Below, in pieces: positions 19,510 through 56,581 of a stretch of 64,000 nucleotides of DNA. Position 1 is the stretch's first letter, and every line of letters starts with the position of its first letter. The position numbers and the translations under genes were made by a program. Source of the stretch: a virus; IMG/VR virus record IMGVR_UViG_3300015202_000003, positions 62,001-126,000 of that record; one strand, written 5' to 3'. The notes under the pieces were generated by a model that was not told where the DNA came from, searched no databases, and saw only the letters and a list, made by a program, of their open reading frames with translations.

Positions 19510-19547
19510 TTTGACAGGTGAGATTTTCGGTTTGTGTTTTAATTTTT

Positions 19548-20189
19548 ATGGATAAAATCTGTGTTTTTAATCCTCAGCGTATACTTACGTTAGATTTTTC
19601 AATTTCAAGGTCTGGTTGGTCTTTTTATGACAAAGAGAAAGATATTTTAAGAATGGGGGCTAAGACTTTTCCTCAAAAAGTTATTGTAAAAAAAACAAAA
19701 ACTTCCTCTGCTATTTTATCGCATCCGGCTTTAAGGTTTAGAGATATTTCTTTGTGGTTAGAAGATATGTTGGAAGAGTTTAATCCTGAGTTATTTATCT
19801 ACGAAGAAACATATTATTCAGCCAATAAAAGTGCTGCTTACATTTCTGTTTTTTTTTATTGTTCTGTAGATATGCTTTGCGCTGAAAGAAAAATAACAAC
19901 TAAAGCTATATCTCCTACAAGTCTAAAGTTGGGTTGGGGCGGCGATGGGAGATGTGATAAGAAACACCTTCAGGAAAAAGTTCTTCAAAGATTTCCTTCT
20001 TATGCAGAATTTTTAGAAGAAGATTCCCACAAAGACCCTACTAAAATGCGAGATATTTCTGATGCGCTTTCTCAGTTAGGATTGTGGTTAGATAATCCTT
20101 CTGTTTACGAGCCTAAAATTAAAATAAAAAAGAAACCTTTGCCTAAAAGAGAGAAATCTCCTCTTCTTGTCAGAGGGGCATCTGACTAA
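19548..20189 (+). CDS. RuvC-like Holliday junction resolvase
   Basis: 213 residues from the ATG at 19548 (a GTG at 19518 is less likely). RNase H fold with the four-acid pattern of RuvC-type resolvases: LTLDFS (D16), IYEETYY (E86/E87) and MRDISDALSQLG (D169, D172). It would cut four-way junctions made during recombination-dependent replication and free DNA for packaging. The C-terminal tail (KSPLLVRGASD) is encoded by DNA resembling an IS200/IS605 end hairpin (20157-20178), so the tail may be a recent addition. An inactive paralogue lies just upstream. Confidence 0.8.
   Translation: MDKICVFNPQRILTLDFSISRSGWSFYDKEKDILRMGAKTFPQKVIVKKTKTSSAILSHPALRFRDISLWLEDMLEEFNPELFIYEETYYSANKSAAYISVFFYCSVDMLCAERKITTKAISPTSLKLGWGGDGRCDKKHLQEKVLQRFPSYAEFLEEDSHKDPTKMRDISDALSQLGLWLDNPSVYEPKIKIKKKPLPKREKSPLLVRGASD
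20157..20178. mobile_element. IS200/IS605-like end hairpin fragment
   Basis: CTCCTCTTCTTGTCAGAGGGG resembles the right-end hairpin of the tnpB element (CCCCTCTGCTTGTCAGAGGGG at 47040) with two differences. It lies inside the last codons of the RuvC-like gene. Probably a remnant of a lost element. Confidence 0.45.
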
Positions 20190-21876: not shown

Positions 21877-23091
21877 ATGGCATTTGACAAAGTAGAAAAA
21901 AAAGAGAAGCCAAAATTAAATTTAGCTTCGCTCCAAGAAAAAATGAGTTATAGTTCTTCAATATCTTTTTATAAGACAGGTTCAATTGTATTGGATGCTA
22001 TCATGGGTGGAGGTATGCCAGAGGGGGGGTTCATTGAATTATGTTCTCCGTCTGGTGTTGGTAAATCCACAACGATGTTACACATTTGTAGAACGATGTG
22101 TGATGAAAATAGAAAAGTTCTTTATATGGATGTTGAAGGAGGTGTTAACCCCAATTCCTTAACTTCTTTTGGGTTAGACCCTCATATTTACGATTCTAAA
22201 TTAAACCCTAACGGAAATTTTATTTTATTAAATCCTTCTACTTATTCAGACGCACAGGAATTAATGGATTTTGCATTGGATGAAAAGAGCGGGGTTAAGA
22301 TGATTGTTATAGATTCTATTACTTTTCTTCTTCCAACAAAAAGATTAGATTCTGATGTAGAAGGTGTTCAGATAGCAATTGATGCTGTTACAACAACTAA
22401 TTTTTTAAAAAAATACAACGCAGAGTGTATGAGAAAAAAAGTGAGTGTTTGGTTAGTCAATCAGATGCGAACAACAATTGATTCTCGCACAGGTGGTAAT
22501 GTTAAATCGGCGGGTGGTTTGGCTTTAGAGCATACTTGTCAGGTAAGAATTAAATTACGCAAGAAACAAGCATTAACAAAAACGGTGACAACTAACATTT
22601 CAAAAGAAGTTGTTCCTTATGGTTCCGTTGTAGTAGCTGAGGCTTTCAAAAACAGATTTGCGCCACCGAATAGAAAGATGGATATGGCAGTTTATTTTGG
22701 ACGGGGGATTTCCAACATCCATACATATAAAGAAATGCTTCAATCCAAGGGTTTAATTAAACAAGGCGGCGCGGGCTATTTTAAAGTTAATCTTTATGAG
22801 GGGATGGAACCCGTTAGTTTACGTTCAGCCGCCGCAGTAGACGGTTATTTATCAGAAAACATTGCACAAGTCCAATCTCTTATAGATTCTTTCGGTGGAA
22901 TCTCTATTCTTTCTGATGAGGAGCAAACTTCTCGAATTTCAAAAGAGATGCCCAAAGGTAATTCTGTTGTTTTATCTTCTCAAAGAGAAGTCTTTATTGG
23001 AGAAGACGAAGAAGTTGAAATTCTTCCCGGAGAGGGTTCTGATGAATCATTAGAACCTCTCTCTTCAATTACGACAGAGGAAGAAGATTAG
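21877..23091 (+). CDS. recA: RecA/UvsX-family recombinase
   Basis: 404 residues. Walker A SPSGVGKST (57-65), Walker B MIVIDS (142-147), an L2-like stretch after VNQMRTTID, and SAGGLALEH. Forms filaments on ssDNA and drives strand exchange with ATP. The C-terminal tail (about 365-404) is very acidic, as in many RecA proteins, where it limits DNA binding. It would act with the SbcC/SbcD proteins and RuvC-like enzymes in this window for recombination-dependent replication and repair. Confidence 0.93.
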   Translation: MAFDKVEKKEKPKLNLASLQEKMSYSSSISFYKTGSIVLDAIMGGGMPEGGFIELCSPSGVGKSTTMLHICRTMCDENRKVLYMDVEGGVNPNSLTSFGLDPHIYDSKLNPNGNFILLNPSTYSDAQELMDFALDEKSGVKMIVIDSITFLLPTKRLDSDVEGVQIAIDAVTTTNFLKKYNAECMRKKVSVWLVNQMRTTIDSRTGGNVKSAGGLALEHTCQVRIKLRKKQALTKTVTTNISKEVVPYGSVVVAEAFKNRFAPPNRKMDMAVYFGRGISNIHTYKEMLQSKGLIKQGGAGYFKVNLYEGMEPVSLRSAAAVDGYLSENIAQVQSLIDSFGGISILSDEEQTSRISKEMPKGNSVVLSSQREVFIGEDEEVEILPGEGSDESLEPLSSITTEEED

Positions 23092-23111
23092 ATTGGATTA
23101 AAACAGGAGTA

Positions 23112-23155
23112 AAAAAGATAGGACTTGGAACGGAAATTCTTTGTCCTATCTTTTT
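23112..23155 (+). terminator. Intrinsic terminator after recA
   Basis: AAAAAGATAGGAC pairs with GTCCTATCTTTTT (13 bp) with an 18-nt loop. Confidence 0.85.
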
Positions 23156-23398
23156 AAACTCGGAAAACTATGCTTAAAAATAAACTTAAAACCAAAGAAG
23201 AAATTCAATTAGAAATTGACAAAAAAGAACTTTTGTAAGAAAACGGTTTTTACAATTTTCTTTTTAATTGAGAGAATTAGCAACTTCTAAATTAGAGGGT
23301 TGAATTTTATAATTAAAGACTTAAAATAGCAATTGGATAAATTACGTGCTGTTTTAAATTTTATAGAAATGGAGCGAGAATAAAAAATCTAATTGAAA
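23156..23398. other. Short gap with only a 22-codon frame
   Basis: The stretch holds one 22-residue frame at 23170-23238 (MLKNKLKTKEEIQLEIDKKE onward), too short to claim, and otherwise nothing I can interpret. Confidence 0.3.
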
Positions 23399-23566
23399 AT
23401 GAAAAACGAGATATTTTCACTGTGTTTGGGCACAGGAACAGGAGAAGAGGTTTTAGTAGAAGTTCCTCTTTTAACTTTTCCTATTATAGATAGCACAACA
23501 TCAGATGATGTTGCCGATACAGCTTCTTCTATTCGATTTAAAAACATATTCTTTGTTCAAAGATGA
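23399..23566 (+). CDS. Small protein, probably first half of a frameshifted gene
   Basis: A 55-residue frame with a good ATG leader (AATTGAA) and protein-like sequence starting MKNEIFSLCLGTGTGEEVLV. It overlaps the next frame by 62 bases. Near 23540 the two frames encode related short strings (SIRFK and FDLKTY), so a +1 shift at the T/A run would join them into one ~100-residue protein. Either overlapping genes or one broken gene. Confidence 0.45.
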   Translation: MKNEIFSLCLGTGTGEEVLVEVPLLTFPIIDSTTSDDVADTASSIRFKNIFFVQR

Positions 23567-23702
23567 AGAGTATATTAATATATTTTTTGAATCTAAAAAC
23601 GAGGAAGATTTAAATTTAGAACATGATTATCAAATAGACCCTAACCAATTGACTTTAGAAGAGATTGAAGCTAAAAAAATTAGAGGAAACATTTTAAATT
23701 AA
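23505..23702 (+). CDS. Small acidic protein, probably second half of a frameshifted gene
   Basis: 65 residues by the first ATG. The first ~13 residues look unlike the rest. From DLKTYSLFKDEEYINIFFES onward the sequence is protein-like and acidic, ending EEIEAKKIRGNILN. See the preceding entry for the probable joining by a +1 shift. Function unknown. Confidence 0.45.
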   Translation: MMLPIQLLLFDLKTYSLFKDEEYINIFFESKNEEDLNLEHDYQIDPNQLTLEEIEAKKIRGNILN

Positions 23703-23708
23703 AAAATT

Positions 23709-24011
23709 ATGGAAGATATAAGTAATAAACTTCCGCCTTGGGGCGCGAAAATAGAGTCTGAAGTTGTGGATACTGAAGCTCTTTCTCCCATTACGGATTC
23801 CGTCAATTCTTTGGAATTACATTTACAACAATTAGAACAGAAAATCGGGCATTTGGCTCATAAAATTAGACCTGTTTCAAAAGAAATCGATTTTTCTTGT
23901 TTTTCTAAGCTCAAAGAGTTGGATTTGAATGGGCATGACGAAAATAAAGACCTTTCAGTTTTGAGATGTAGAATTGTTGAGGTTGATTTCTGTAATTTCT
24001 TATTTATTTGA
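23709..24011 (+). CDS. Small helical protein of unknown function
   Basis: 100 residues. Residues 30-60 have heptad spacing (SLELHLQQLEQKIGHLAHKI), and the second half is acidic and Cys-containing. Leader AAAAAATT is typical. Ends with TGATAG and a terminator. No family recognised. Confidence 0.55.
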   Translation: MEDISNKLPPWGAKIESEVVDTEALSPITDSVNSLELHLQQLEQKIGHLAHKIRPVSKEIDFSCFSKLKELDLNGHDENKDLSVLRCRIVEVDFCNFLFI

Positions 24012-24032
24012 TAGATTAGATGTGTAGAGGAC

Positions 24033-24082
24033 AAAGAAGAAAAAATTCTTAGCTTTAACAACGAAGAATTTTTTCTTCTTTT
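24033..24082 (+). terminator. Long AT-rich intrinsic terminator
   Basis: AAAGAAGAAAAAATTCTT pairs with AAGAATTTTTTCTTCTTT across a 14-nt loop. Confidence 0.75.
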
Positions 24083-24194
24083 GACATTGATATGGAGAAT
24101 AATTTCGTAGATTTGGATAGAAGAATTTTTAAAAAGGGTTTGGATGGTTTTTGGATTAGGATTAAATAATAGATAGAATATTTCAATTATTTTC

Positions 24195-24203
24195 TGTTAA
24201 ACT
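24195..24203 (+). promoter_or_regulatory. Extended -10 promoter (TGTTAAACT) for the SbcC-like operon
   Basis: TGTTAAACT ends eight bases before the ATG at 24212, predicting a leaderless transcript. Confidence 0.55.
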
Positions 24204-24211
24204 AACGTCTA

Positions 24212-25318
24212 ATGTTTTTTCCAATTCAAGAGATAGAAGTAACAGTTGAAAATTTTCAATCTTTAGAAAAAGCTAATTTAAAGTTCGAGACGGGGATAAG
24301 TTTGATTCAAGGCTCTAATTCTTGCGGTAAAACGGCGGTCTTTAGGGCTTTAAATAGTTTTTATTTTAATTCTTTCAATGATAGTTTTATTCGTAACGGT
24401 CAAAATGAAACTAAGATAGAAGTAATTCATAACAATAGAAAGGCTTCTTTAACCCGTTGGCGTGAGAGTTCCAAGAAATATGGGAGTAAAGGCATCTATG
24501 AAATAGAGGGTGAAATCTTTACCAAGACGGGAAGAGAAGCCCCTCCTGAACTAATAGAGATAACTCGTATAGAGCCTAAAGAGTCTGAAAGTGCGGGAAT
24601 TACTTTACACCCTAATTTTTGGTTACAAGAAGCGCCTCCTTTTTTGTTAAATTTATCTCCTGCTAAGATTTACGATTTTCTTTTACAAGATAGGGAGTTG
24701 TTAGAAATTTTAGGAGATTTAAAAACAACACAAAAAGAGGCTTCAACAAAAACAAAGTTCATAGAAAACAGATTTGAATCTGAAGAGAAAGAAAGTTTAG
24801 AGCTGCAAAAAAAACAAAAGGAGCTGTCTTCTTACGACAGTTTGTTTTTATTATTAGATTTGATAGAAGAAGCCGAAGAAAGGTTAGAAGGTTTAATTTT
24901 AACTAAAGAAAAATTAAAAGGAATTAGAGAGAGAAAAACGAATTTAAATCAAAAACAAAATAAAAACTTTAAGATTGTTTCTCTTTTAAACTCTCTTCCT
25001 AATCCTGAAAACTACAAAAATTTATCTGCTTTAAAAGAAATTTTGTTAGGTATTAAAAAGTCAGTAGAGTCTCAAAAAAACACGTTAAAAATTAATTTTT
25101 TGAAGCAAAAAAGTCTTTATTTTCCTGACATGGAAGAAGATTTAGCTTCTCTTTTTCATTTAAGAAATGTTTTGGAATCTTACAAAGAGATAAAAGAGAG
25201 AAAAGAGAGTTTTATTTTAAAACAAGAGACAAATTCACATTTTATGGAAGAAGTTAAAATTTCTTTAGAATCTTTCGATGTGTGTCCGTTATGCAGTTCT
25301 GAGTTAGTTAAATTTTAA
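24212..25318 (+). CDS. N-terminal half of a split Rad50/SbcC-type ATPase
   Basis: 368 residues. The N-terminal lobe has VTVENFQSLEKANLKFETGI and Walker A GSNSCGKT (34-41). A coiled coil follows (about 165-345). The protein ends with CPLC (C358, C361), the zinc-hook motif that in Rad50/SbcC lies at the middle of the chain. The Walker B half is a separate gene at 25969. So the ATPase is encoded in two pieces cut at the hook. Works with the SbcD-like nuclease at 36184 on DNA ends and hairpins, like T4 gp46/gp47. Confidence 0.85.
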   Translation: MFFPIQEIEVTVENFQSLEKANLKFETGISLIQGSNSCGKTAVFRALNSFYFNSFNDSFIRNGQNETKIEVIHNNRKASLTRWRESSKKYGSKGIYEIEGEIFTKTGREAPPELIEITRIEPKESESAGITLHPNFWLQEAPPFLLNLSPAKIYDFLLQDRELLEILGDLKTTQKEASTKTKFIENRFESEEKESLELQKKQKELSSYDSLFLLLDLIEEAEERLEGLILTKEKLKGIRERKTNLNQKQNKNFKIVSLLNSLPNPENYKNLSALKEILLGIKKSVESQKNTLKINFLKQKSLYFPDMEEDLASLFHLRNVLESYKEIKERKESFILKQETNSHFMEEVKISLESFDVCPLCSSELVKF

Positions 25319-25325
25319 TTGGATT

Positions 25326-25664
25326 ATGTTTTACCGTAAAAAGACCTCTCCTGTTGTGGCTTTTCAAATAAGCTACAAGCCGTTAGATAATTTAAATTGG
25401 CCTTTGTGGTTTAGGAGATTAGTTTTACATGAACAAAGAAAAGAAGATTCTAATGAAAAGTGTTATAAAATTGTTTTCAATGATAATGGTAGGTATGAAT
25501 TTTTAATTAAAGCACCTCTTTTAAGTTCTAAAGACATTAGAATTGAAATAGAAGAGGGGCATTGGGTTATTCAAGGGGAAGAGTTTTCAAAAAACTTGGA
25601 AATTTATACTCGTTCCGACAAAGATTTTAAAGAGCAGTATGAGCCTTTAGGAGCGGGGATTTAA
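25326..25664 (+). CDS. Small phage protein of the YRKK...GHWVI(x)G type, function unknown
   Basis: 112 residues. The start MFYRKKTSPVVAFQ and the C-terminal IEEGHWVIQGEEF...FKEQYEPLG match a very common small phage protein that begins with YRKKPVxVEAFQ and contains an EGDWIIxG segment. Its role is unknown. It lies 7 bases after the N-terminal SbcC half, between the two halves of the ATPase. Confidence 0.65.
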   Translation: MFYRKKTSPVVAFQISYKPLDNLNWPLWFRRLVLHEQRKEDSNEKCYKIVFNDNGRYEFLIKAPLLSSKDIRIEIEEGHWVIQGEEFSKNLEIYTRSDKDFKEQYEPLGAGI

Positions 25665-25685
25665 AGAAGTGCGAAAAGAATTTTT

Positions 25686-25694
25686 TGTTAAACT
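25686..25694 (+). promoter_or_regulatory. Extended -10 promoter (TGTTAAACT)
   Basis: Lies 11 bases before the ATG at 25706, giving a leader of only a few bases. It allows the second half of the SbcC region to be transcribed on its own. Confidence 0.5.
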
Positions 25695-25705
25695 GAAAAT
25701 CGTCT

Positions 25706-25960
25706 ATGAAAATACAATCCAACAATGATTTAGTTTCTCGTTTTCAATCTCTTCAAACAAAGAAAAGAGAATTAGAATTGGAGGAAGTTCAAATTAAAAC
25801 TCAGTTAACTTCTTTAAATGAAAAGGAAGAGTCTATTTTAAAAGAGCTTAAAACATCTTACGAATTAAATTCTTTAGAGGAACTAACTCAAAGAATAGAG
25901 CAAGAAGAAAAGAAAATAGAGGATTCTTTAACTCAAGCTGAACAAGGTTTAAATATTTAA
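25706..25960 (+). CDS. Small coiled-coil protein between the SbcC halves
   Basis: 84 residues, almost entirely coiled coil (KKRELELEEVQIKTQLTSLN onward). It ends 8 bases before the Walker B half. It may be the returning arm of the Rad50 coil broken into its own gene, or an independent partner. It has no CxxC. Confidence 0.6.
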   Translation: MKIQSNNDLVSRFQSLQTKKRELELEEVQIKTQLTSLNEKEESILKELKTSYELNSLEELTQRIEQEEKKIEDSLTQAEQGLNI

Positions 25961-25968
25961 TTTTTAAA

Positions 25969-26607
25969 ATGTTAAATACAAGAATCTCTTTGTTAAAATC
26001 TAATTTAACTCCTATAAAAAAACAAAAAGAGGAGTTGGATTTCCAATTAAAAAATTCAATTTTAAATCTTGAGAAGTTAAAATTAGAGTTAAAAGAATCA
26101 AGAAAAAATTTAGAGTTTCAAACCGAGTGTTACGAGTGGTGCAAGAACATTTTAGATTTAAGAAACAAAGAACATTTGGATAAGATTACGAATTTAATTT
26201 CTTTAGCTTTACAAACTGTTTTTTTTGACCGTAACTATGAATTTATTTTAAAGATAGAAGATAAGAGAGGTGTAAAGAACGCTGTCTTTATTTTGTGGGA
26301 GCAATTAGAAAACGGAGAAGTAATAGAAACAGATTTTAATGGTTTGGGCGGAAGTGTTAGAGTAATTGTTTCTTTTTGCCTAAGCGTGTTTTTTATAAAT
26401 TATTTTAAATTGTCCCCTGTTATTTTTTTAGATGAGGCTATGGGTGCCCTTTCTAACTCATACATAGACTCCTTTGGAGAGTTTGTATCTTCTTTGTGTA
26501 ATCAGACAGGTTTAATTTTTGTTTTAATTTCGCATGACCCGCGTTTTCGTGATCTTGCTAATGTTGTCTACGAAATTAAAAATGGAACTGCAAAAGAGGT
26601 TTCATAA
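25969..26607 (+). CDS. C-terminal half of a split Rad50/SbcC-type ATPase
   Basis: 212 residues. Coiled coil at about 1-70, then the ABC C-terminal lobe: signature-like FNGLGGSV (123-130), Walker B VIFLDEAMGAL (151-161) and H-loop ISHD (187-190). Together with the gene at 24212 this makes a complete Rad50/SbcC head. Residues 24-40 are encoded by DNA nearly identical to part of the gene at 35318. The protein has no Walker A, so it must pair with the N-terminal half. Confidence 0.85.
   Translation: MLNTRISLLKSNLTPIKKQKEELDFQLKNSILNLEKLKLELKESRKNLEFQTECYEWCKNILDLRNKEHLDKITNLISLALQTVFFDRNYEFILKIEDKRGVKNAVFILWEQLENGEVIETDFNGLGGSVRVIVSFCLSVFFINYFKLSPVIFLDEAMGALSNSYIDSFGEFVSSLCNQTGLIFVLISHDPRFRDLANVVYEIKNGTAKEVS
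26039..26085 (+). repeat. About 45-bp repeat shared with 35693-35739
   Basis: The segment encoding QLKNSILNLEKLKL is nearly identical in the two genes at DNA level (CAATTAAAAAATTCAATTTT and on), including synonymous positions, so it is a copied DNA segment and not convergence. Confidence 0.85.
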
Positions 26608-26711
26608 TAAAAAATTTAGATGAAATAAAACTTCGTTTAAATTTTTGTTTTTGGGTTTTACTTTCCATTAAAAAACATTTACAGATTTTTTTTATAGAAG
26701 AGGTTAATGAT

Positions 26712-26751
26712 AAAGAGAAGATAAGAAATTTTAATTCTTATCTTCTTTTTT
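26712..26751 (+). terminator. Intrinsic terminator abutting the next start codon
   Basis: AAAGAGAAGATAAGAA pairs with TTCTTATCTTCTTTTT. Its T-tract runs directly into the ATG at 26752, so formation of the hairpin would also hide the translation start. Confidence 0.8.
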
Positions 26752-27462
26752 ATGTTTAGTTTAAATTTAAATCCCGAACATTTAATTGCTCAAAAATTAA
26801 CTTCTTTATTTGAGCAAAGCACATTTTCAATGCCCATAAACAACATTACCGATGAAAATGACGGTAGGGGTTTTACAGTGGGTTGGGCGGGGTTTACGAC
26901 GGCAGATGAAGAGCCAAGAAGGTGTATTGAAACTTATATAAAATTAGTCGGTGAGAACGGTTTAAGCGGGGATGTTTTAGATACGATTAAGCGTTCACAG
27001 GGTAATCATGCCACTCAAGCATTGAATAATGTAAATTTTAAAGCTATGTGGAAGGATGCGTGTTCAAACCCTTCTTTCCAAGATGCTTTTCAATTAACGG
27101 TCAGTTCTATTTTCGGGGTTCCTGCTCAGAAATATTGTGACGATTACAACTTTGTTTTTCCTATATCTTTTGCAATTTTATTTGATTCTTTAATTCAGCA
27201 TGGTAATGGTAATGACCCGGATAGTGTTCCTTCTATGATAAGTAGTTTAAATTTAGGAAGTTCTGATGATGAAAAAGTTCAAATGTCCGCTTTTTTAGAC
27301 GAAAGACACAGAGTTTTATCTCACCCTAATAATACAGATACGCAAGTAGAGTGGGCGGCATCCGTTGGTAGAGTGGATTCTTTGAGACATATTTTAAATA
27401 CTAACAGAAATTTAAAATCTCCCATTAATTTTAATTGGGAGCATAGTTCTTATTCTCTTTAA
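26752..27462 (+). CDS. Glycoside hydrolase family 46 (chitosanase)-like protein, copy 1
   Basis: 236 residues. AQKLTSLFEQ supplies the general acid (E21). NDGRGFTVGWAGFTTADEE is the GH46 signature, with catalytic Asp37 in place of Asp40 of the Streptomyces enzyme. SFAILFDSLIQHGNGND matches the conserved YDxxIQHG helix. GH46 enzymes have a lysozyme-like fold and cleave beta-1,4 glucosamine chains. In a phage this may be a lysin or a depolymerase for a chitosan-like or partly de-acetylated host polymer. No signal peptide is visible. The start overlaps a terminator tract. A diverged copy follows. Confidence 0.8.
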   Translation: MFSLNLNPEHLIAQKLTSLFEQSTFSMPINNITDENDGRGFTVGWAGFTTADEEPRRCIETYIKLVGENGLSGDVLDTIKRSQGNHATQALNNVNFKAMWKDACSNPSFQDAFQLTVSSIFGVPAQKYCDDYNFVFPISFAILFDSLIQHGNGNDPDSVPSMISSLNLGSSDDEKVQMSAFLDERHRVLSHPNNTDTQVEWAASVGRVDSLRHILNTNRNLKSPINFNWEHSSYSL

Positions 27463-27507
27463 TTTTCACATTTTTAAATAAAGAAAAGTTGATACAAAAA
27501 TTAAAAT

Positions 27508-28215
27508 ATGACTTACCAACAAACTGCTCAAAAATTGACTTCTTTATTTGAAACAAATGAAACAGGGGTTCCAATTAACAACGTTTCCAATGAAAATGAT
27601 GGCAGAGGATATACTTGTGGTTGGGCAGGATTTACAACGGCAGATCAAGAAGTTGTAGAATTTGTCAAGCGTTATACGGAATTACAGGGGACTAATCATC
27701 TTAGCGGTAAAATTTACAAAGAATTAATTAGACTTTCTACAGAGGGTTGTGATGAAACTGATGTTTTAGATCAGTATCAATTTAAGATGCATTGGCAAAA
27801 CGGTTGTTTTTACGAATATTCAAAAGAAAGTTTTAGAAAAGCCTATGAAGAAACGGTAGATTATGTTTTTGGTTCAACGGCAAAAGAACACTGTGAGAAA
27901 TTAAATTTAGTTCTTCCAATTTCTTATGTTGTTTTATTTGATACGGGGGTTCAACATGGTTGGGACAGTGATTTAGATAGTGCGGCTTCTATGATTGAAA
28001 AAACATGGCGTCCTGAAATTGATGAAAAGGAATTTTTAGAATCTTTTTTAAAATTAAGAAAGGAGATTTTAGAAAACCCTCACAATAAAGAAACAAAAGA
28101 GGAGTGGGCACAATCTGTTGGCAGGGTAGATTCTCTAAGACAAATTTTAGAAGAGAATCTCGAACTAACTTCTCCAATTAAATTTAAATGGGAGGAGGGC
28201 GATTACGAGTTTTAA
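27508..28215 (+). CDS. Glycoside hydrolase family 46 (chitosanase)-like protein, copy 2
   Basis: 235 residues and a tandem paralogue of the previous gene: AQKLTSLFET with E15, ENDGRGYTCGWAGFTTADQE with D31, and SYVVLFDTGVQHGWDSD. The two keep the same acid spacing and the shared C-terminal SVGRVDSLR segment but differ in the middle, so they may have different substrates. Starts 45 bases after copy 1 with leader TTAAAAT. No signal peptide, so export would need a holin or attachment to the particle. Confidence 0.8.
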   Translation: MTYQQTAQKLTSLFETNETGVPINNVSNENDGRGYTCGWAGFTTADQEVVEFVKRYTELQGTNHLSGKIYKELIRLSTEGCDETDVLDQYQFKMHWQNGCFYEYSKESFRKAYEETVDYVFGSTAKEHCEKLNLVLPISYVVLFDTGVQHGWDSDLDSAASMIEKTWRPEIDEKEFLESFLKLRKEILENPHNKETKEEWAQSVGRVDSLRQILEENLELTSPIKFKWEEGDYEF

Positions 28216-29334: not shown

Positions 29335-31803
29335 ATGAAAAAAGAAGAGATTAAAGTTTTAAATAAGGGATTTGTAGCATTGGACGATTTTTGTGCAGAT
29401 GATTTATCAGTTGTAAATAGCGCAAGAGTTTCTTTTAATAAGAGAGTAGAAGAAGTTTCTTACGGGGACGAGAAGCTAATTGGATTTCTTTTAAAGAATA
29501 AGCATGGTTGTTACGACTCAGAAACGGAAGTTTTGACAAGTGAAGGCTGGCGTAAATGGCCTGATATTGTAGGTTTTGAGTTGTTTGCTACGCTTTCACC
29601 TAAAGGTGTTATAGAATATCAACAGGCTGAACGTGTTGTTCATAAAGAAGTAGAAGGCCCAATGATTAAGTTGTCAATGAATCAAGTTGATTTACTTGTA
29701 ACTCCTGATCATAATATGTTGGCAAAAAAATCTTTTAATACTACTAAACCTTATGAATACAAACTTATTCCTGCGAAAGATTTATTACTACATTCATATC
29801 GTATCCCGTTGACAGGTGGAGATTGGAGTGGTAGTGAACAGAATGAAGCTCGTATGGCTTTATTGGGTTTTTTTATTGGGGGCGGTTCTTTCAAAGAAAT
29901 TTCAATCGAGTTTCACTTAAAAGAAGAACGGGAAATTAAATTTCTTTTTGAACAATCTGAAAAAGCAGGTTTTTCCGTCAATAGTAACAAAGACGACACC
30001 TATCTCTTGAAATCCGACGCGGAGTTTAGAGAAATTTGTCGTCTTTGTTACAACAAAGGGGGTGAAAAAGTAATTCCTCGCTCTATTTTAAATAGTAGCC
30101 CTAAAAGTCTTGAATCTGTGTTGAGTGGTTTGATGCACTCAGATGGAACCTGTTCAAAAACAGGCAAAGAAACATACTCAACCGCCAGTTTTATTTTAGC
30201 GGGTGAAATACAAGAACTCTGTTTGAAGATTGGCCGAGCCGCACTTATATACCCACATCTGTTTACAAAAGAAGACGGACATTACGGCAGTAAAGACTGT
30301 TACAGGATAACAATTTACCGAAAAAGCAATTCAGAACCCAGAATTGGTTGGACTATCGCTGATAGAAGAAATCAGGTTAAAATTGTTCTTTATAAGGGGT
30401 TTGTCCATTGCGTAACAGTTCCTAATGGAAATCTTTATGTGCGTAGAAACGGTAAGCCTTGTTGGTGTGGAAATACACCTTTTGAGTCTAATTTTTTTAG
30501 GTTTAGGGTAAAGGCTCCTATATTTGTTTTTAGAGAGTGGCACAGACACAGAATTGGTTCTTGTTTGTCTGGGGATTCTATAATTACTACAGAATCTATC
30601 GATGTTAGAAGCGGGAGAATGAAACGTCTCCGTAGATTAAAAGATTTGCATGACAATTATAATTGTGGTGTGACTGATGTTAAAAACAGAACCAGATTCT
30701 TGCCTTCTTGTAGAAACTTAAAACTAAGAAACTTGGATGAAGGCGCAAACTCGTTTACGGTTCAGAAAATTGAAGATGTTTATTGCACAGGGGAAAAGGA
30801 GGTTTTTTCTGTTTGTGTAGGAGAAAACGCGTTAAAAGCTTCTTGTGACCATAAAATTTTAACGGCAGATGGTTGGGCTAAAGTAAATGAACTTTCCGGT
30901 AATGAACTTATAGCTGTTTCTTCTAATATTCATTGTTCTAATCCAGATAGAATTTCTTCACATCTTAGAACTGGGATCGGGTTGTGGACACAGCAACAAA
31001 GGGATATTTTAATTAAAGAAGAAGACTACTGTTATAATTGTGGAGGTTGTTTCAATAGAAAACATCTTGATTTAGACCATTTAATACCTGTAGTTACAGA
31101 TTTGTCTAAAGCATTGGATAGAAACAATTTAAAGCCCATTTGTAAAGAATGTCATAGAATAAAAACTTCTTCCGAACAAATTTCGGCTAACAGAAAAGGG
31201 TCTTCTGTTGAATTGAAATACGTTTCTTTGGCTAAAAAAGTAATCAGAGTTGGGGAAGAAATGACTTACGATATATCTATGCCAGCACCTAATCACAATT
31301 TTGTAGCTAATGGAATTGTAGTTCATAACAGTATAAATGAGTGGTCAGCAAGATATTCTCGTTTAGAACCTGATTTTTATATTCCTGAACCTGAAAATGT
31401 CAGGGTTCAAGTGGGAAAGCCGGGGAATTATACTTATTTACAGGCAACAAAAGAATCGGCATTTTCTTTTATAGAAAGGTTAAAAAATAAATGTAGTCGA
31501 GATTACGAAGATTATGAATGGGCTTTAAATTGTGGACAAGAGTTTTCCTTGTCTGATTTTTTTGGAGAAAAGGTGGAAGGTATAGCAAAAGAACAAGCAA
31601 GGTTTTTTCTAAATGTAAATATTTATTCTGAAATGTATTGGTCTTGTAATGCACGTTCATTGATGAATTTCCTTTCTTTAAGAAATTCCCCTAAGTCTCA
31701 GTGGGAGCTAAGAGAGTATGCTATTGTTTTAGAAGATATTTGGAAAGAAATTATGCCTATGACTTATAATTATTTTATAGAGAACGGTAGAGTAGCCCCT
31801 TAA
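29335..31803 (+). CDS. thyX: Flavin-dependent thymidylate synthase (ThyX) with two inteins
   Basis: 822-residue precursor with an extein of about 244 residues, the usual ThyX size. ThyX makes dTMP from dUMP using FAD, NADPH and methylene-tetrahydrofolate. The extein holds VNSARVSF, KHG|TPFE, FREWHRHRIGS|SINEWSARYS (the ThyX motif RHRx7S) and the C-terminal EQARFFLNVNIYSEMYWSCN. The first intein (29509-30474) lies between KHG and TPFE, the second (30562-31329) inside the signature between RIGS and SINEW. Splicing is required for activity. Works with NrdJ to supply dTTP. Confidence 0.95.
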   Translation: MKKEEIKVLNKGFVALDDFCADDLSVVNSARVSFNKRVEEVSYGDEKLIGFLLKNKHGCYDSETEVLTSEGWRKWPDIVGFELFATLSPKGVIEYQQAERVVHKEVEGPMIKLSMNQVDLLVTPDHNMLAKKSFNTTKPYEYKLIPAKDLLLHSYRIPLTGGDWSGSEQNEARMALLGFFIGGGSFKEISIEFHLKEEREIKFLFEQSEKAGFSVNSNKDDTYLLKSDAEFREICRLCYNKGGEKVIPRSILNSSPKSLESVLSGLMHSDGTCSKTGKETYSTASFILAGEIQELCLKIGRAALIYPHLFTKEDGHYGSKDCYRITIYRKSNSEPRIGWTIADRRNQVKIVLYKGFVHCVTVPNGNLYVRRNGKPCWCGNTPFESNFFRFRVKAPIFVFREWHRHRIGSCLSGDSIITTESIDVRSGRMKRLRRLKDLHDNYNCGVTDVKNRTRFLPSCRNLKLRNLDEGANSFTVQKIEDVYCTGEKEVFSVCVGENALKASCDHKILTADGWAKVNELSGNELIAVSSNIHCSNPDRISSHLRTGIGLWTQQQRDILIKEEDYCYNCGGCFNRKHLDLDHLIPVVTDLSKALDRNNLKPICKECHRIKTSSEQISANRKGSSVELKYVSLAKKVIRVGEEMTYDISMPAPNHNFVANGIVVHNSINEWSARYSRLEPDFYIPEPENVRVQVGKPGNYTYLQATKESAFSFIERLKNKCSRDYEDYEWALNCGQEFSLSDFFGEKVEGIAKEQARFFLNVNIYSEMYWSCNARSLMNFLSLRNSPKSQWELREYAIVLEDIWKEIMPMTYNYFIENGRVAP
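29509..30474 (+). other. Intein 1 of ThyX (LAGLIDADG type)
   Basis: 322 residues. Starts with Cys59 (CYDSETEVLTSEG), has the block B VTPDHNML, two LAGLIDADG-like helices (LLGFFIGGGS and VLSGLMHSDG) and ends ...NGNLYVRRNGKPCWCGN before Thr. The penultimate residue is Gly instead of His. The first LAGLIDADG copy has lost its acidic residue, so the nuclease may be weak or dead. Confidence 0.9.
30562..31329 (+). other. Intein 2 of ThyX (HNH type)
   Basis: 256 residues. Starts at CLSGDSIITTE, block B ASCDHKILT, an HNH nuclease with CYNCGG...LDLDHLIPV...CKECHRIK, and ends NHNFVANGIVVHN before Ser. It interrupts the RHRx7S active-site motif. Confidence 0.92.
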
Positions 31804-35185: not shown

Positions 35186-35317
35186 ATAGAAGAGTTTATT
35201 TTTTCTTAAAGAGTAAGAGATTAAATTATTAAATTGTGGAACATCAAACAGATAGTTCTGAATTAACTAAACAATTAAATAAGATGGGTTAGTGTAGAAG
35301 TTAAGTTGGGAAATAAA

Positions 35318-35893
35318 ATGGAAAATTTAACTGAGATAGCAGAAGGTTTTAGAAGTTTGGAACTTTCAACGGAACGGGCGCGGGAAGAGTTCCTAAATCA
35401 TCCAAGAATAAGGGAGTGGATAGGTTGTGTTTTAAAACCGCGAGAATTTTATTTTATTAACAGTTTTTCTTTTGAGAATGGAAAGGTAGGTGTAAACTAC
35501 TGGTGTCCAAGCGGTGATGATGCCCTATTCATTCCTTTAGAAGTTTTAAATTCAAATGAACCTATAGAAGATTATTACGACGGATTAGAAAAAGAGCAGG
35601 AAAAATCTTTAGGTTTGATTAAAAAGAGAGAAAATTATAAAATAATGTTAAGCAATCTTTCTAAGGAAGAATATTCTTACGGGGAGTTGGTTTTACAATT
35701 AAAAAATTCAATTTTAAATCTTGAGAAGTTAAAATTATATATCTTTAATCTTGAAACTTGTTTATTAGAAAAAGGGGAGTGTCCTCCATTTTTAACTGAA
35801 AGTGAGGTAAAGGAATTTGATAGATTGAATAATAAGAGTATTTTGAAGAATGGGGGGTTGGAAGAAAAGAACGAAGATAGTTTTATTTTTTAG
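35318..35893 (+). CDS. Protein of unknown function sharing a copied coil segment
   Basis: 191 residues from the ATG at 35318. The first ~90 residues form a compact domain (PREFYFINSFSFENGKVGVN). Around 127-145 it carries LQLKNSILNLEKLKL, encoded by DNA nearly identical to part of the C-terminal SbcC half. Ends in a polar tail. Overlaps no neighbour. Function unknown. Confidence 0.55.
   Translation: MENLTEIAEGFRSLELSTERAREEFLNHPRIREWIGCVLKPREFYFINSFSFENGKVGVNYWCPSGDDALFIPLEVLNSNEPIEDYYDGLEKEQEKSLGLIKKRENYKIMLSNLSKEEYSYGELVLQLKNSILNLEKLKLYIFNLETCLLEKGECPPFLTESEVKEFDRLNNKSILKNGGLEEKNEDSFIF
35693..35739 (+). repeat. About 45-bp repeat shared with 26039-26085
   Basis: Second copy of the DNA segment coding QLKNSILNLEKLKL. 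It sits in an unrelated protein, consistent with recombination or copying between coiled-coil genes. Confidence 0.85.
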
Positions 35894-35900
35894 TTAAATT

Positions 35901-36191
35901 ATGCTGAAGAATTTTGAAGAATTTCTTATTTATTTACAACAAAAGAAAACTGCTGTTTACGATGATTTATTAAAAAACTATGTTTTAGTTAATGGTTTTT
36001 ATAAGGAGTCTGATTTGAAAGAAGAAGACAGGGAGGTAATTATATTTAAGACAGAGAAGATTTTTGGAGAGTATTTGAAAGGCAATGTTCGTCCGGTTGT
36101 TCGGGCTATAAATTTAGCTATGTCTTCTTGGGGCGAAGATGTTTTCAGAGACGTGGCAACGGCGTATTTGTCTTTTAATCACAATGGTTAA
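35901..36191 (+). CDS. Small helical protein upstream of the SbcD-like gene
   Basis: 96 residues, helical, ending 7 bases inside the next gene, so translation is coupled. No motif recognised. Conserved coupling to an SbcD-like gene suggests a related function. Confidence 0.55.
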   Translation: MLKNFEEFLIYLQQKKTAVYDDLLKNYVLVNGFYKESDLKEEDREVIIFKTEKIFGEYLKGNVRPVVRAINLAMSSWGEDVFRDVATAYLSFNHNG

Positions 36192-37167
36192 TTTAAAATC
36201 TAATAGTTTTTTTCTGGTTGGTGACTTGCATATTAATTTTTCTAACGTCGTATCCCGCCGCGATAGTTATGGAGAAACTGTTTTAAGAAAACTAAGGTGG
36301 GTTTTTGAACATAGTTTGGGAAAAGGTTGTAATGTGGTCTTGGTAAGCGGCGATTGGTTCCATACAAAGAAGCAGACGGTTTCTTATTTAAATAAAGTAG
36401 TTTCTCTTTTTGCTGAATTTAAAAAAAGAGGCTTATATGTATATGGGATATTAGGAAATCACGACTATACCTCAGAAATCGCTGTTTCAGTAGAGAATCA
36501 TCCGATTTATATGCTTTTCAAGTCAGAGATGGCTTTTCATTTAGATGTGTTAAATCTTTTAGACGAAAAAGAAAATGTTTTAATATCTATACAAGGAAAA
36601 GATTATTTAGATTTAAATTTTAGTAAAAGTTGTTTAAAAGATGTTTTGTCTTGTTTAGTTTTTCATAGATATTACGAAGAAGATGAACACGAACCTTTTC
36701 CTTTAACTAAAGAAGTTGTTTTAAAAGAGGGGTGGGATATTTGTTTCGGCGGACACGCGCATCAACGATACGCTGACGTTTTATTTCCTAATCTTCAATC
36801 TTTTTCGGGTAAATCTTTAATTGTAAGACCCGGCTCTCTCTTACGGGGAACAAGCCATTCAGAGGAAGTTAGAAAAGAGGTAGGGGTAGTTTTTTTTGAT
36901 GTATCAGATCCAAAAAATCCTAAACATGAATTTGTAGTTGTTCCCCACGAAAAAGCAGAAGATGTTTTTATTTCTCAAGTCTTTGACAAAGAAAACAAAC
37001 AAAAAAATATAAAAGATAGAATAAAAGACAAGGTAGAAATTTTGGTGGGAATGATGGAAAATACAAGTTCAAGTGAGAAGTTGGATTTAAATGTTTACGA
37101 GAAAATGCCCGAAGAAGTTAAAATTCATCTTAGAGAGAAATTAAGAGAGAAAGGTATTTTTGGTTGA
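36184..37167 (+). CDS. sbcD: SbcD/Mre11-type metallophosphoesterase nuclease
   Basis: 327 residues from the ATG at 36184. Five phosphoesterase motifs are visible: VGDLHINF (I), SGDWFHTK (II), GNHDYTS (III), a VFHR segment (IV) and GGHAHQRY (V). It would bind two metal ions and cut DNA ends with the SbcC/Rad50 ATPase, like T4 gp47. The C-terminal helices (about 270-327) would contact the Rad50 coil base. It is 9.6 kb from the split ATPase genes, unlike the usual adjacent pair. Confidence 0.9.
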   Translation: MVNLKSNSFFLVGDLHINFSNVVSRRDSYGETVLRKLRWVFEHSLGKGCNVVLVSGDWFHTKKQTVSYLNKVVSLFAEFKKRGLYVYGILGNHDYTSEIAVSVENHPIYMLFKSEMAFHLDVLNLLDEKENVLISIQGKDYLDLNFSKSCLKDVLSCLVFHRYYEEDEHEPFPLTKEVVLKEGWDICFGGHAHQRYADVLFPNLQSFSGKSLIVRPGSLLRGTSHSEEVRKEVGVVFFDVSDPKNPKHEFVVVPHEKAEDVFISQVFDKENKQKNIKDRIKDKVEILVGMMENTSSSEKLDLNVYEKMPEEVKIHLREKLREKGIFG

Positions 37168-54632: not shown

Positions 54633-55310
54633 TTGAAAGATATAGAAAAGGGAATGATTTTAAACATTTCTCCTTTTGTTTCTCAAAACAAATTTAAATT
54701 TTTAGATAGTGTAGAAGTCGGCTTAAATCTTAAAAATTTAAAGCCGAACAATTTTGAAAAAGTAGAAGGGAGAAAAACAAAACAAGAACAAGAGTATAAA
54801 TTTGATTATTCTTGTGTTTTAGTTCCTTTCTCCCCTTCTTTTAAAGAAGATTTTATTCAAGAATCTGAAAAGTTTGTCGGCCCGTTAGATTTTAGTGGCA
54901 AGGGCTTGGAATTAGAGCCTCATTTAACACTAAAATATGGTTTAACAACAGACGATATAAGTGAAGTGAAAGATTTAGTTTGTAATTTTGGAGAATTAAA
55001 TTTCACAACTCATTTTGTTTCTTGTTTTTTTGGAGAGGAGAAAAAGAAAGATTACGATGTTTTATATTTATCTGTTTTAAATTCCTCTAAATCTTTAAAT
55101 CGGTTAAATCATTTGTTGGGTTATCTATCCAATGTAGATGAAACAGAAATTTTCACGCCTCATATAACAATTGCCTACGTTCAAAAGGGCAAAGGATATA
55201 AGTATTTAGGAAAACCTTTTTCATTAAGTTTTCAAGCTATAGTTTCTGATGAAATAATTTTTTCAGATAGGAACGGAGTTCAAAATCTAATTTCTTTAGT
55301 TCAATGTTAA
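54633..55310 (+). CDS. 2H phosphoesterase-like protein
   Basis: 225 residues by the TTG at 54633; the ATG at 54654 after AAGGGA is an alternative. Two HxT motifs with the usual context: ELEPHLTLKYGL (His97, Thr99) and IFTPHITIAYV (His177, Thr179). The family cleaves 2',3' or 2',5' cyclic phosphodiester bonds and includes anti-CBASS enzymes of phages and 2'-5' RNA ligase-like proteins. The location within the ART cluster supports a host-directed role. Overlaps the next gene by 7 bases. Confidence 0.8.
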   Translation: MKDIEKGMILNISPFVSQNKFKFLDSVEVGLNLKNLKPNNFEKVEGRKTKQEQEYKFDYSCVLVPFSPSFKEDFIQESEKFVGPLDFSGKGLELEPHLTLKYGLTTDDISEVKDLVCNFGELNFTTHFVSCFFGEEKKKDYDVLYLSVLNSSKSLNRLNHLLGYLSNVDETEIFTPHITIAYVQKGKGYKYLGKPFSLSFQAIVSDEIIFSDRNGVQNLISLVQC

Positions 55311-56581
55311 TATTTAGTCCGAAAAACATTCCTTATATTAAAGGTTTAAGAGTGTTAGAATCTAAAAAAGAAGGTTTGTTAAAAAACATTAGGGGTGAGT
55401 GGGTGGACGAGCAAAAAGCAAAAGCAGATAGGGAAAAACTATATGCCCTTTACTTGGAAATTCAGAAGAAAAAAGGAGTTAAAGTTTCAACTGTCCCTGC
55501 TTCTTACGATAAAATGTCTCTTCCTGTTCTTTCACGAACTTTGAGGGCTATGTTACATTCTTTAGAGAAAAGGAAAGAAAGTCAGGAAAAATTTTTTATA
55601 CAATCTAAAGAGAAAAAAGAGGTTGAATCTGATAGTAATAAAGAGGTGGTTAAAGACCCCGAAGAAAAAGGTGGAGAAAGCGGTGGTGGGGTTAAAAAAG
55701 AGGTTGTTAATTTGGGTTTTTTAACTCCTGATAAAGAGGGTGTAGTTTTAATGCCTTTAAGTAATAAGAAACTTTTTTCTAAAAACCAGAAACCTTTTTT
55801 TGAAGAGGAGGTTAGGCAGGATGAAGATTCTTACCTTGAACATTCTAAAAAATTGGCGTCAAAAATCGTTTCTTCTTTAAAAGAAGACTTTGACGTAAAA
55901 AGTTTTGCGTTAGATTTAAAGGATTTAATAGGTTCACAAACACCTGATAGTCCTGAAGAGGTTGACCTTGAAACAACTTCTTTTCTTAAAAAACAAACTT
56001 CTTCTGTTGAAAATGCAGGTTTGGCTTTAATTCAAGCGTGGTATAGAAGTTCAAACGGTTCTGCTTTAAGTCAAATGATGCAACAATCAGCCAAGAATGT
56101 TTTTGGTGCGGATACAGATTCTTTTAAGCATGATACGGAGGAATTTAAATCTGGTAAGTCTGTTAAATATTTAAAAAGCAAGAAGGTTTTAGATTTCATG
56201 GCGAAGCATCAAAAAGCAGTAGACAAGATAGCGAAAGCAATGTATGAAGAAACCCAAAAACAATTGAAAGAGAAAGGAATTAAAGAGGTAACTGTTTTAA
56301 GAGGTGCGGAAGACTACGGGAAACAACTTAGTTCTTGTATTAATGGGGGGAAAAGTATAGATTTAAACCCTTTAAGTTCTTGGACTTGTGATAAATTTAT
56401 AGCAAAGGAGTTTTGTGATGATGTAGATTTCGGGAGAGGTATTATAATGAAAACCACGGTTCCGGCATCAAGAATATTTTCAACAGGTATGTCTGGAGTG
56501 GGAACATTAGGAGAAAGTGAAGTTGTTTTAATTGGCGGGAAAAATGTCGGCAAGGTGGGAAAGTATAATTTTGAGTTGTAG
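55304..56581 (+). CDS. ADP-ribosyltransferase (R-S-E class) on a modular N-terminus
   Basis: 425 residues. N-terminal MLIFSPKNIPYIKGLR motif; second shared part (RGEWVDEQKAKADREKLYAL, about 30-100) also in the gene at 57896; a Lys/Glu/Gly-rich linker (about 100-135); a middle region; then a C-terminal ART domain (about 235-425) with VTVLRG (Arg333), LSSWTCDKFIAKEF (Ser358/359) and GESEVVLIGG (Glu404, Glu406). All three catalytic features of R-S-E toxins are present. Resembles phage Alt-type and bacterial VIP2-like ARTs. Confidence 0.8.
   Translation: MLIFSPKNIPYIKGLRVLESKKEGLLKNIRGEWVDEQKAKADREKLYALYLEIQKKKGVKVSTVPASYDKMSLPVLSRTLRAMLHSLEKRKESQEKFFIQSKEKKEVESDSNKEVVKDPEEKGGESGGGVKKEVVNLGFLTPDKEGVVLMPLSNKKLFSKNQKPFFEEEVRQDEDSYLEHSKKLASKIVSSLKEDFDVKSFALDLKDLIGSQTPDSPEEVDLETTSFLKKQTSSVENAGLALIQAWYRSSNGSALSQMMQQSAKNVFGADTDSFKHDTEEFKSGKSVKYLKSKKVLDFMAKHQKAVDKIAKAMYEETQKQLKEKGIKEVTVLRGAEDYGKQLSSCINGGKSIDLNPLSSWTCDKFIAKEFCDDVDFGRGIIMKTTVPASRIFSTGMSGVGTLGESEVVLIGGKNVGKVGKYNFEL

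Follow-up and report, generated by a model that had tools for sequence, protein, structure and literature searches.

The closest described relatives of the locus analysed here are the canonical SbcCD complexes and the archaeal and eukaryotic Mre11-Rad50 complexes, for which it is a standing question whether the Rad50 arm has to run through the zinc hook as a single unbroken antiparallel chain, for both Mre11-Rad50 tethering and hook-to-head signalling. The locus lies in a 64,000-nucleotide stretch (the window; bases 62001-126000 of the 198,095-base IMG/VR virus record IMGVR_UViG_3300015202_000003, a metagenome-derived contig), where a Rad50/SbcC-type ATPase is encoded as two proteins, an N-half and a C-half, separated at the hook. 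It shares with the canonical complexes both lobes of the ATP-binding cassette (ABC) ATPase, the Walker A, Q-loop, Walker B and H-loop motifs, CxxC, SbcD and the Rad50 fold, but its N chain stops at the hook, its C-lobe, preceded by a short coil, is encoded on its own, its arm is unequal, the signature serine is missing and there is an extra small coiled-coil gene. The engineered two-chain catalytic domain of Pyrococcus furiosus Rad50 (PDB 1f2t, 1f2u and 1ii8), which we take to be the lobes produced as two chains, resembles the natural halves in having its N- and C-lobes as chains A and B; it differs in being man-made and cut near the head, whereas the natural N-half retains the whole ascending arm and the hook. 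RloC, YhaN, RecN and SMC are likewise ABC ATPases with a coil, some with a zinc hook (RloC), but they are one-piece chains, and YhaN falls outside the split clade described below. T4 gp46/gp47 and one-piece phage SbcC proteins, exemplified by SPN3US gp186 (PMC5105663), also represent a phage recombination endonuclease with an SbcD partner, but T4 gp46 is one chain of 560 amino acids (aa) with CPTC mid-chain and is also outside the split clade.

Fusions of Mre11 and Rad50 on plasmids and phages, with SbcD joined to Rad50, were described by Yoshida et al. in 2011 (PMC3175470), and the available part of that paper notes that the SbcD-SbcC fusions of Anaerostipes and Bacillus phage 0305phi8-36 are without one P-loop segment. 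These two fusions possibly belong to the split family; neither the site of the missing lobe nor a split at the hook is reported in that part. A review of jumbo phages (PMC7824862) treats SbcC/SbcD as near-universal and describes split polymerases, and its available text yielded no split SbcC. No description of a split Rad50 was found in the open literature, to which the search was confined, and the family is apparently undescribed. We consider it very probable that it constitutes a conserved multi-chain Mre11-Rad50 (SbcCD-like) complex in which Rad50 is opened at the zinc hook. This appears to be an old, working design and not a broken gene: as read from the genomes, separate genes for the N-half, the C-half and SbcD are held apart over a large phylogenetic range.

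The split locus and the position of the cut

Four consecutive open reading frames (ORFs) on the plus strand make up the locus: the N-half (24212-25318), a 112-aa gene (25326-25664), an 84-aa coiled-coil gene (25706-25960) and the C-half (25969-26607). Leave-one-out family profiles, built with the window excluded, were run over the 229 ORFs of the window, and each picked a single ORF (N, E 1.6e-34; C, E 3.5e-27; SbcD, E 6.9e-30), which places the identification far beyond chance. The N-half (368 aa; Pfam AAA_23/AAA_15 over cut-off) comprises an ABC ATPase N-lobe, a helical arm of ~198 residues and a terminal CPLC. Its Walker A motif, GSNSCGKT (residues 34-41; 24311-24334), has G34, G39 and K40 invariant in 17 aligned N-halves, as is the Q-loop glutamine Q139 (24626-24628). 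CPLC (residues 358-361; 25283-25294) lies seven residues ahead of the stop, with C358, P359 and C361 invariant in the same 17 rows. The N-half matches profiles of solved Rad50 structures; at its end, the family profile for N gives a hit to 6zff, the solved structure of a Rad50 zinc hook (E 7e-4). In the AlphaFold2 (AF2) model, used as a guide only, the N-lobe is followed by a helix (161-261), breaks at proline turns, a second helix (307-353) and CPLC, and the structural matches are the A chains 9a9j_A, 1ii8_A and 1f2u_A. Leucine-rich-repeat matches of the N-arm were set aside as repeat-pattern similarity because the modelled arm is helical.

The C-half (212 aa; phrog_15167, E 2e-11) begins with a helix of ~62 residues and continues into the C-lobe, where an alignment of 20 C-halves shows D155 and E156 of the Walker B motif VIFLDE (residues 151-156; 26419-26436) and the H-loop H189 (26533-26535) to be invariant. 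Its AF2 model (predicted local distance difference test, pLDDT, 86) has a single helix at 2-63 followed by a C-lobe with the Rad50 fold, for which the best Foldseek matches are the P. furiosus Rad50 chains 1ii8_B, 1f2u_D and 1f2u_B. For both halves, profiles and models match the respective A and B chains of 1f2t, 1f2u and 1ii8 as best or near-best. The original prediction of a first gene with Walker A ending in CPLC and a second one starting in coiled coil with Walker B and H-loop was thus borne out; the signature that it assigned to the second gene is there in atypical form. In the signature region, LGGS (residues 126-129; 26344-26355), GG is invariant, and the position of the canonical serine is occupied by L, F, R, N or V in all 20 C-halves (x-GG), unlike the LSGGE of canonical Bacillota SbcC; the LSGGE/Q motif of Rad50 is therefore missing. 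As a separate observation, a 55-base piece of the C-half coil (26031-26085) is repeated at 35683-35737 with 96% identity (42 bases exact), inside an unrelated ORF (35306-35893) just before the SbcD gene and in frame in both places.

The SbcD/Mre11 nuclease partner (326 aa; 36187-37167, plus strand; Metallophos over cut-off) keeps DLH, GDWF, GNHD and GHAH, and an in-frame upstream start is possible at 36139. SbcD is thus encoded alongside the halves, and three loci carry it as a fusion with the N-half. Elsewhere in the 198,095-base record there is no second N-lobe and, in a search with profile A8, which includes the window's own C-half and scores there by construction, no second C-lobe. One-piece SbcC is absent from the record, the SbcC profile matching the N-half alone (E 0.01). 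The original prediction had named two observations that would speak against it, an indel showing one frame and a complete SbcC elsewhere in the genome; neither held, as the split is not a frameshift and no complete SbcC was found in the record.

The cut itself is placed consistently. Among 121 distinct complete N ORFs, 118 terminate 3-41 residues (median 19) past the last CxxC, the three without CxxC are head-only fusions, and none runs through N-lobe, hook and C-lobe. On Rad50 profiles the N-halves align to positions 4-461 of 883 and the C-halves to 682-892 of 895, while canonical SbcC proteins of the same phylum have CxxC at 504-598 of 1004-1186 residues. A mid-chain hook between coils of similar length was not found in the split family, and both lobes share a polypeptide only in permuted or head-only fusions. 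The N-arm, measured from the end of the N-lobe to CxxC, spans ~198 residues in the window (median 296 in 70 N-halves), compared with ~62 residues for the C-half coil (median 64 in 99 C-halves). With an arm of 296 and a coil of 64, most of the return strand is missing, which argues for contact at the head and arm root.

The original prediction of two small genes and a promoter between the halves held for the genes. The promoter was not supported: promoter-like matches were fewer than the shuffled expectation, with none in the gap at 25665-25705, and TTGTTAAACT-like motifs occurred at chance level. The 112-aa gene (plus strand; weak match to phrog_419, E 1e-4) is probably an unrelated insertion separating the halves, as relatives have an AP2-like gene, an AbrB-like gene or no gene at the same place. 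A small coiled-coil gene, S, mostly of 75-93 residues, is clear in relatives and present in most split loci, usually between the N-half and the C-half. Its counterpart in the window is probably the 84-aa ORF (plus strand) adjoining the C-half, which tops the 229 ORFs for three S models when composition is left uncorrected (E 2e-6 to 5e-3) and gives no hit once it is corrected.

Distribution and ancestry of the split form

The original prediction proposed searching related phages for the same split, and this search was positive well beyond phages, extending to IMG/VR contigs, plasmids and Bacillota chromosomes. A direct scan of viral contigs with the window's own halves gave no match, the sequences being too divergent. 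A tblastn search with the C-half returned three phages, each with a standalone C-half, a separate N-half and SbcD, and two more, the Bacillus phage vB_BboS-125 and the Microcystis phage Mvi-JY20, came from reciprocal searches; the N and C searches returned near-identical phage sets. A homologous split is therefore present in five other distantly related phage genomes (vB_BboS-125, Tunturi_5, Magritte, Mvi-JY20 and LR745208). The N-halves end at the hook as DCPVCGSLPGTKCSKPSS in LR745208, TLCGKCGDPISKSAA in Tunturi_5, GGICPLCEQTHKGGGC in vB_BboS-125 and LTPCSQCNRLVLGGNPCQSSS in Mvi-JY20, and the Magritte N-half (gp155; L025:5001-6053) has no CxxC. The halves lie ~6 kb apart in LR745208.

A scan of bacterial genomes identified prophage-like modules in Sutcliffiella, Paenibacillus and Brevibacillus with the order N, small coil, C, SbcD, and the same module was found on 29 IMG/VR contigs. 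The C-half profile matches 50 of 400 Bacilli genomes, mostly in single copy. In most of ten chromosomal regions read, the order is recA-recX-SbcD-N-S-C-rny-ymdB-spoVS (names of recA, recX, rny, ymdB and spoVS assigned by eye from sequence), as in the Bacilli loci L103, L105, L107, L108, L109 and L112, where the SbcD-N-S-C operon lies between recA-recX and rny-ymdB-spoVS. None of the tested products of these chromosomal operons matched a specific NCBIfam family over cut-off. Across 399 Bacillota genomes, C-half scores are cleanly bimodal (>80 bits versus <53), with ~60 genomes above the gap, so that roughly one in seven sampled genomes carries the split form. Plasmid carriers include Alkaliphilus, Geobacillus, P. 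polymyxa, B. velezensis, Vibrio and Pseudomonas. The order N-S-C(-D) or D-N-S-C was observed for 115 of 124 placed C-halves, although 58 of these 115 loci are short fetches without room for D and some loci overlap at one place.

Several natural rearrangements bear on how the parts fit together. SbcD is fused to the N-half on Geobacillus and P. polymyxa plasmids (L033 and L037) and in L110. On Vibrio and Pseudomonas megaplasmids the chain is circularly permuted to C-N (L035:4980-6971 and L036:4926-6803), with CPLC or CPTC at the extreme C-terminus; an open hook is evidently compatible with lobes linked at the head. No relative of the permuted Vibrio protein was found in phage records. Three genomes encode single SbcD-N-lobe-C-lobe chains of 684-700 residues (L143:3764-5818, L144:4652-6754 and L145:4583-6670) in which arm, hook and S are all gone. 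To judge from their gene structures, these fusions and permutations support co-assembly of N, C and SbcD. Beside the permuted chains stands an SbcD-like protein (L035:6983-7855 and L036:6796-7692) with no usual SbcD metal-site motifs and no Pfam match, possibly an inactive SbcD.

Canonical SbcC was detected in one of 25 split-bearing genomes (three of them with a head-only fusion) and in 20 of 39 without the split (Fisher p 7e-5), counts that are phylogenetically non-independent and were obtained by scoring 15-20 candidate stretches per genome. This difference suggests that the split form replaces canonical SbcC. In a tree computed from both lobes (359 columns), a branch with 99/98 support separates all 25 members of the family, whether split, permuted or head-only, from five SbcC proteins, T4 gp46 and YhaN. 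The window sequence clusters with LR745208-like phages (98/86), and the head-only fusions nest within the Bacillota split group and thus look derived. A single origin of the split is favoured by this tree, which has several long branches and leaves out archaeal Rad50. We think it fairly likely that a single ancient event broke the chain at the zinc hook, that continuity there was never required, and that a distinct clade of N, S, C and D tethers through zinc between the free C-termini of N-arms, replaces SbcC in many Bacillota, is carried across several phyla by large phages and megaplasmids, and was rewired twice, by circular permutation and by loss of arm and hook.

Proposed assembly of the halves and alternative explanations

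Within the proposed multi-chain complex, it is very likely that the halves come together at the ATPase head. A single N-half would unite there with a single C-half into one nucleotide-binding domain, with ~60 residues of coil in contact at the arm root, and two such heads would sandwich ATP and hold an SbcD dimer. The complex could process DNA ends for phage UvsX/RuvC recombination. The N-arm, its descending partner strand largely gone, would fold on itself or with S, placing CxxC at the free end, where two N-arms may share one zinc ion; the hook would be a link between chain ends and no longer a turn within a chain. We judge such a zinc link reasonably likely, while the case for S sitting on the arm, drawn from its absence where the arm is absent (L143-L145), is evenly balanced. 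Most phages and bacteria with the split form would have left the chain open, and some lineages would have re-joined the lobes at the head, either as permuted C-N chains or as SbcD-N-C without arm and hook.

Several points weigh against this reading. The structure models cover single chains only, and that of the N-half is weak (pLDDT 69); assembly of the N-half with the C-half, zinc binding and activity are all predicted from sequence. With the signature serine missing throughout the C-halves, ATP hydrolysis may differ, possibly with altered kinetics. The hook is dispensable while the split is kept, as the Magritte N-half without CxxC indicates. S in the window is not significant after composition correction, its support coming from position and rank, and the non-independence of the genome counts given above belongs here as well.

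One alternative, which we consider unlikely, has the halves pairing over the full length of the coil, or else at the hook, and so rebuilding the antiparallel arm in trans. The C-half does begin in coil, and S (~80 aa) could add to the descending strand, but the C coil (median 64) and S together fall far short of the N-arm median of 296, and S is missing from the head-only fusions and only likely in the window. A meeting at the hook or along the coil, as originally proposed, is less well supported, since the C coil is too short for arm pairing or to reach the hook, and in the permuted and head-only fusions found in nature the lobes are connected at the head. Early PDB Rad50 entries were made as two chains, and natural halves should likewise re-form the head; most likely, then, that is where they join, as in the crystallographers' two-chain Rad50, with neither the coil nor the hook as the meeting place.

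It is quite improbable that the genes serve defence against phages or interference, as a module of the Lamassu LmuB, Mad3 or PtuA-GajA type, in place of repair. N-halves do match the PADLOC models LmuB, mad3 and PtuA, and the modules are carried by phages and plasmids, but the matches are partial and confined to the shared N-lobe or coil. The partners are SbcD and S, SbcD accompanying copies with flanks read with few exceptions, the chromosomal copies lie between recA-recX and rny, the phage copies occur with UvsX and RuvC, and canonical SbcC is usually missing from split-bearing genomes. Membership in the Lamassu LmuB/Mad3 families, which would entail a full-length match and defence partners, was rejected.

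Rejoining of the pieces during expression, by trans-splicing, a split intron or intein, or ribosomal bypass, is more doubtful still. Inteins do occur in phages of this kind (ThyX, 29335-31803) and an AP2-domain gene lies between the halves in vB_BboS-125, but both halves possess a start and a stop of their own, and no intron family or RNA element was detected in 23000-28000. The halves are also at least ~40 kb apart in Magritte (~40 kb across the record ends, if joined, or 93 kb) and ~108 kb apart on opposite strands in Tunturi_5, and in other phages an SbcD or clamp gene separates them. A further possibility is that a one-piece SbcC appears cut through an error of sequencing or assembly, or is decaying as a pseudogene. 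The metagenomic origin of the contig and the proximity of the halves on one strand might speak for it, but it can be dismissed almost entirely and is already refuted by the conserved split, with an identical cut site in more than 100 loci (finished phage genomes and chromosomes included), intact 112-aa and 84-aa genes between the halves, and Walker A, Q-loop, Walker B and H-loop all retained.

For the multi-chain complex opened at the hook, the natural cutting at that point, the shortened return strand, the permutation and the loss of arm and hook in one lineage make the question of arm continuity testable with natural proteins. They also suggest that the apparent lack of SbcC in some bacteria and phages may arise because its parts carry the labels 'AAA family ATPase' and 'hypothetical protein'.

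Neighbouring features of the window

Just upstream of the N-half, a UvsX/RecA-like recombinase is encoded at 21877-23091 (plus strand; Pfam RecA, phrog_97), an order also seen in phage Tunturi_5, and a RuvC-like resolvase is encoded at 19518-20189 (plus strand; phrog_159, E 4e-14). Downstream of the C-half, two family 46 glycosyl hydrolase (chitosanase) genes stand in tandem (26752-27462 and 27508-28215) in this phage. The ThyX thymidylate synthase is apparently interrupted by a pair of inteins; one matches LAGLIDADG weakly and the other has an HNH nuclease. The ORF at 55304-56581 has an above-cut-off match to dinitrogenase reductase ADP-ribosyltransferase (DRAT) and is a possible phage ADP-ribosyltransferase. 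Intergenic repeats of 59 nucleotides (29066, 34389 and 34911) and 58 nucleotides (38206 and 38780) were also observed, and the 59-nucleotide family looks like hairpins ahead of genes.
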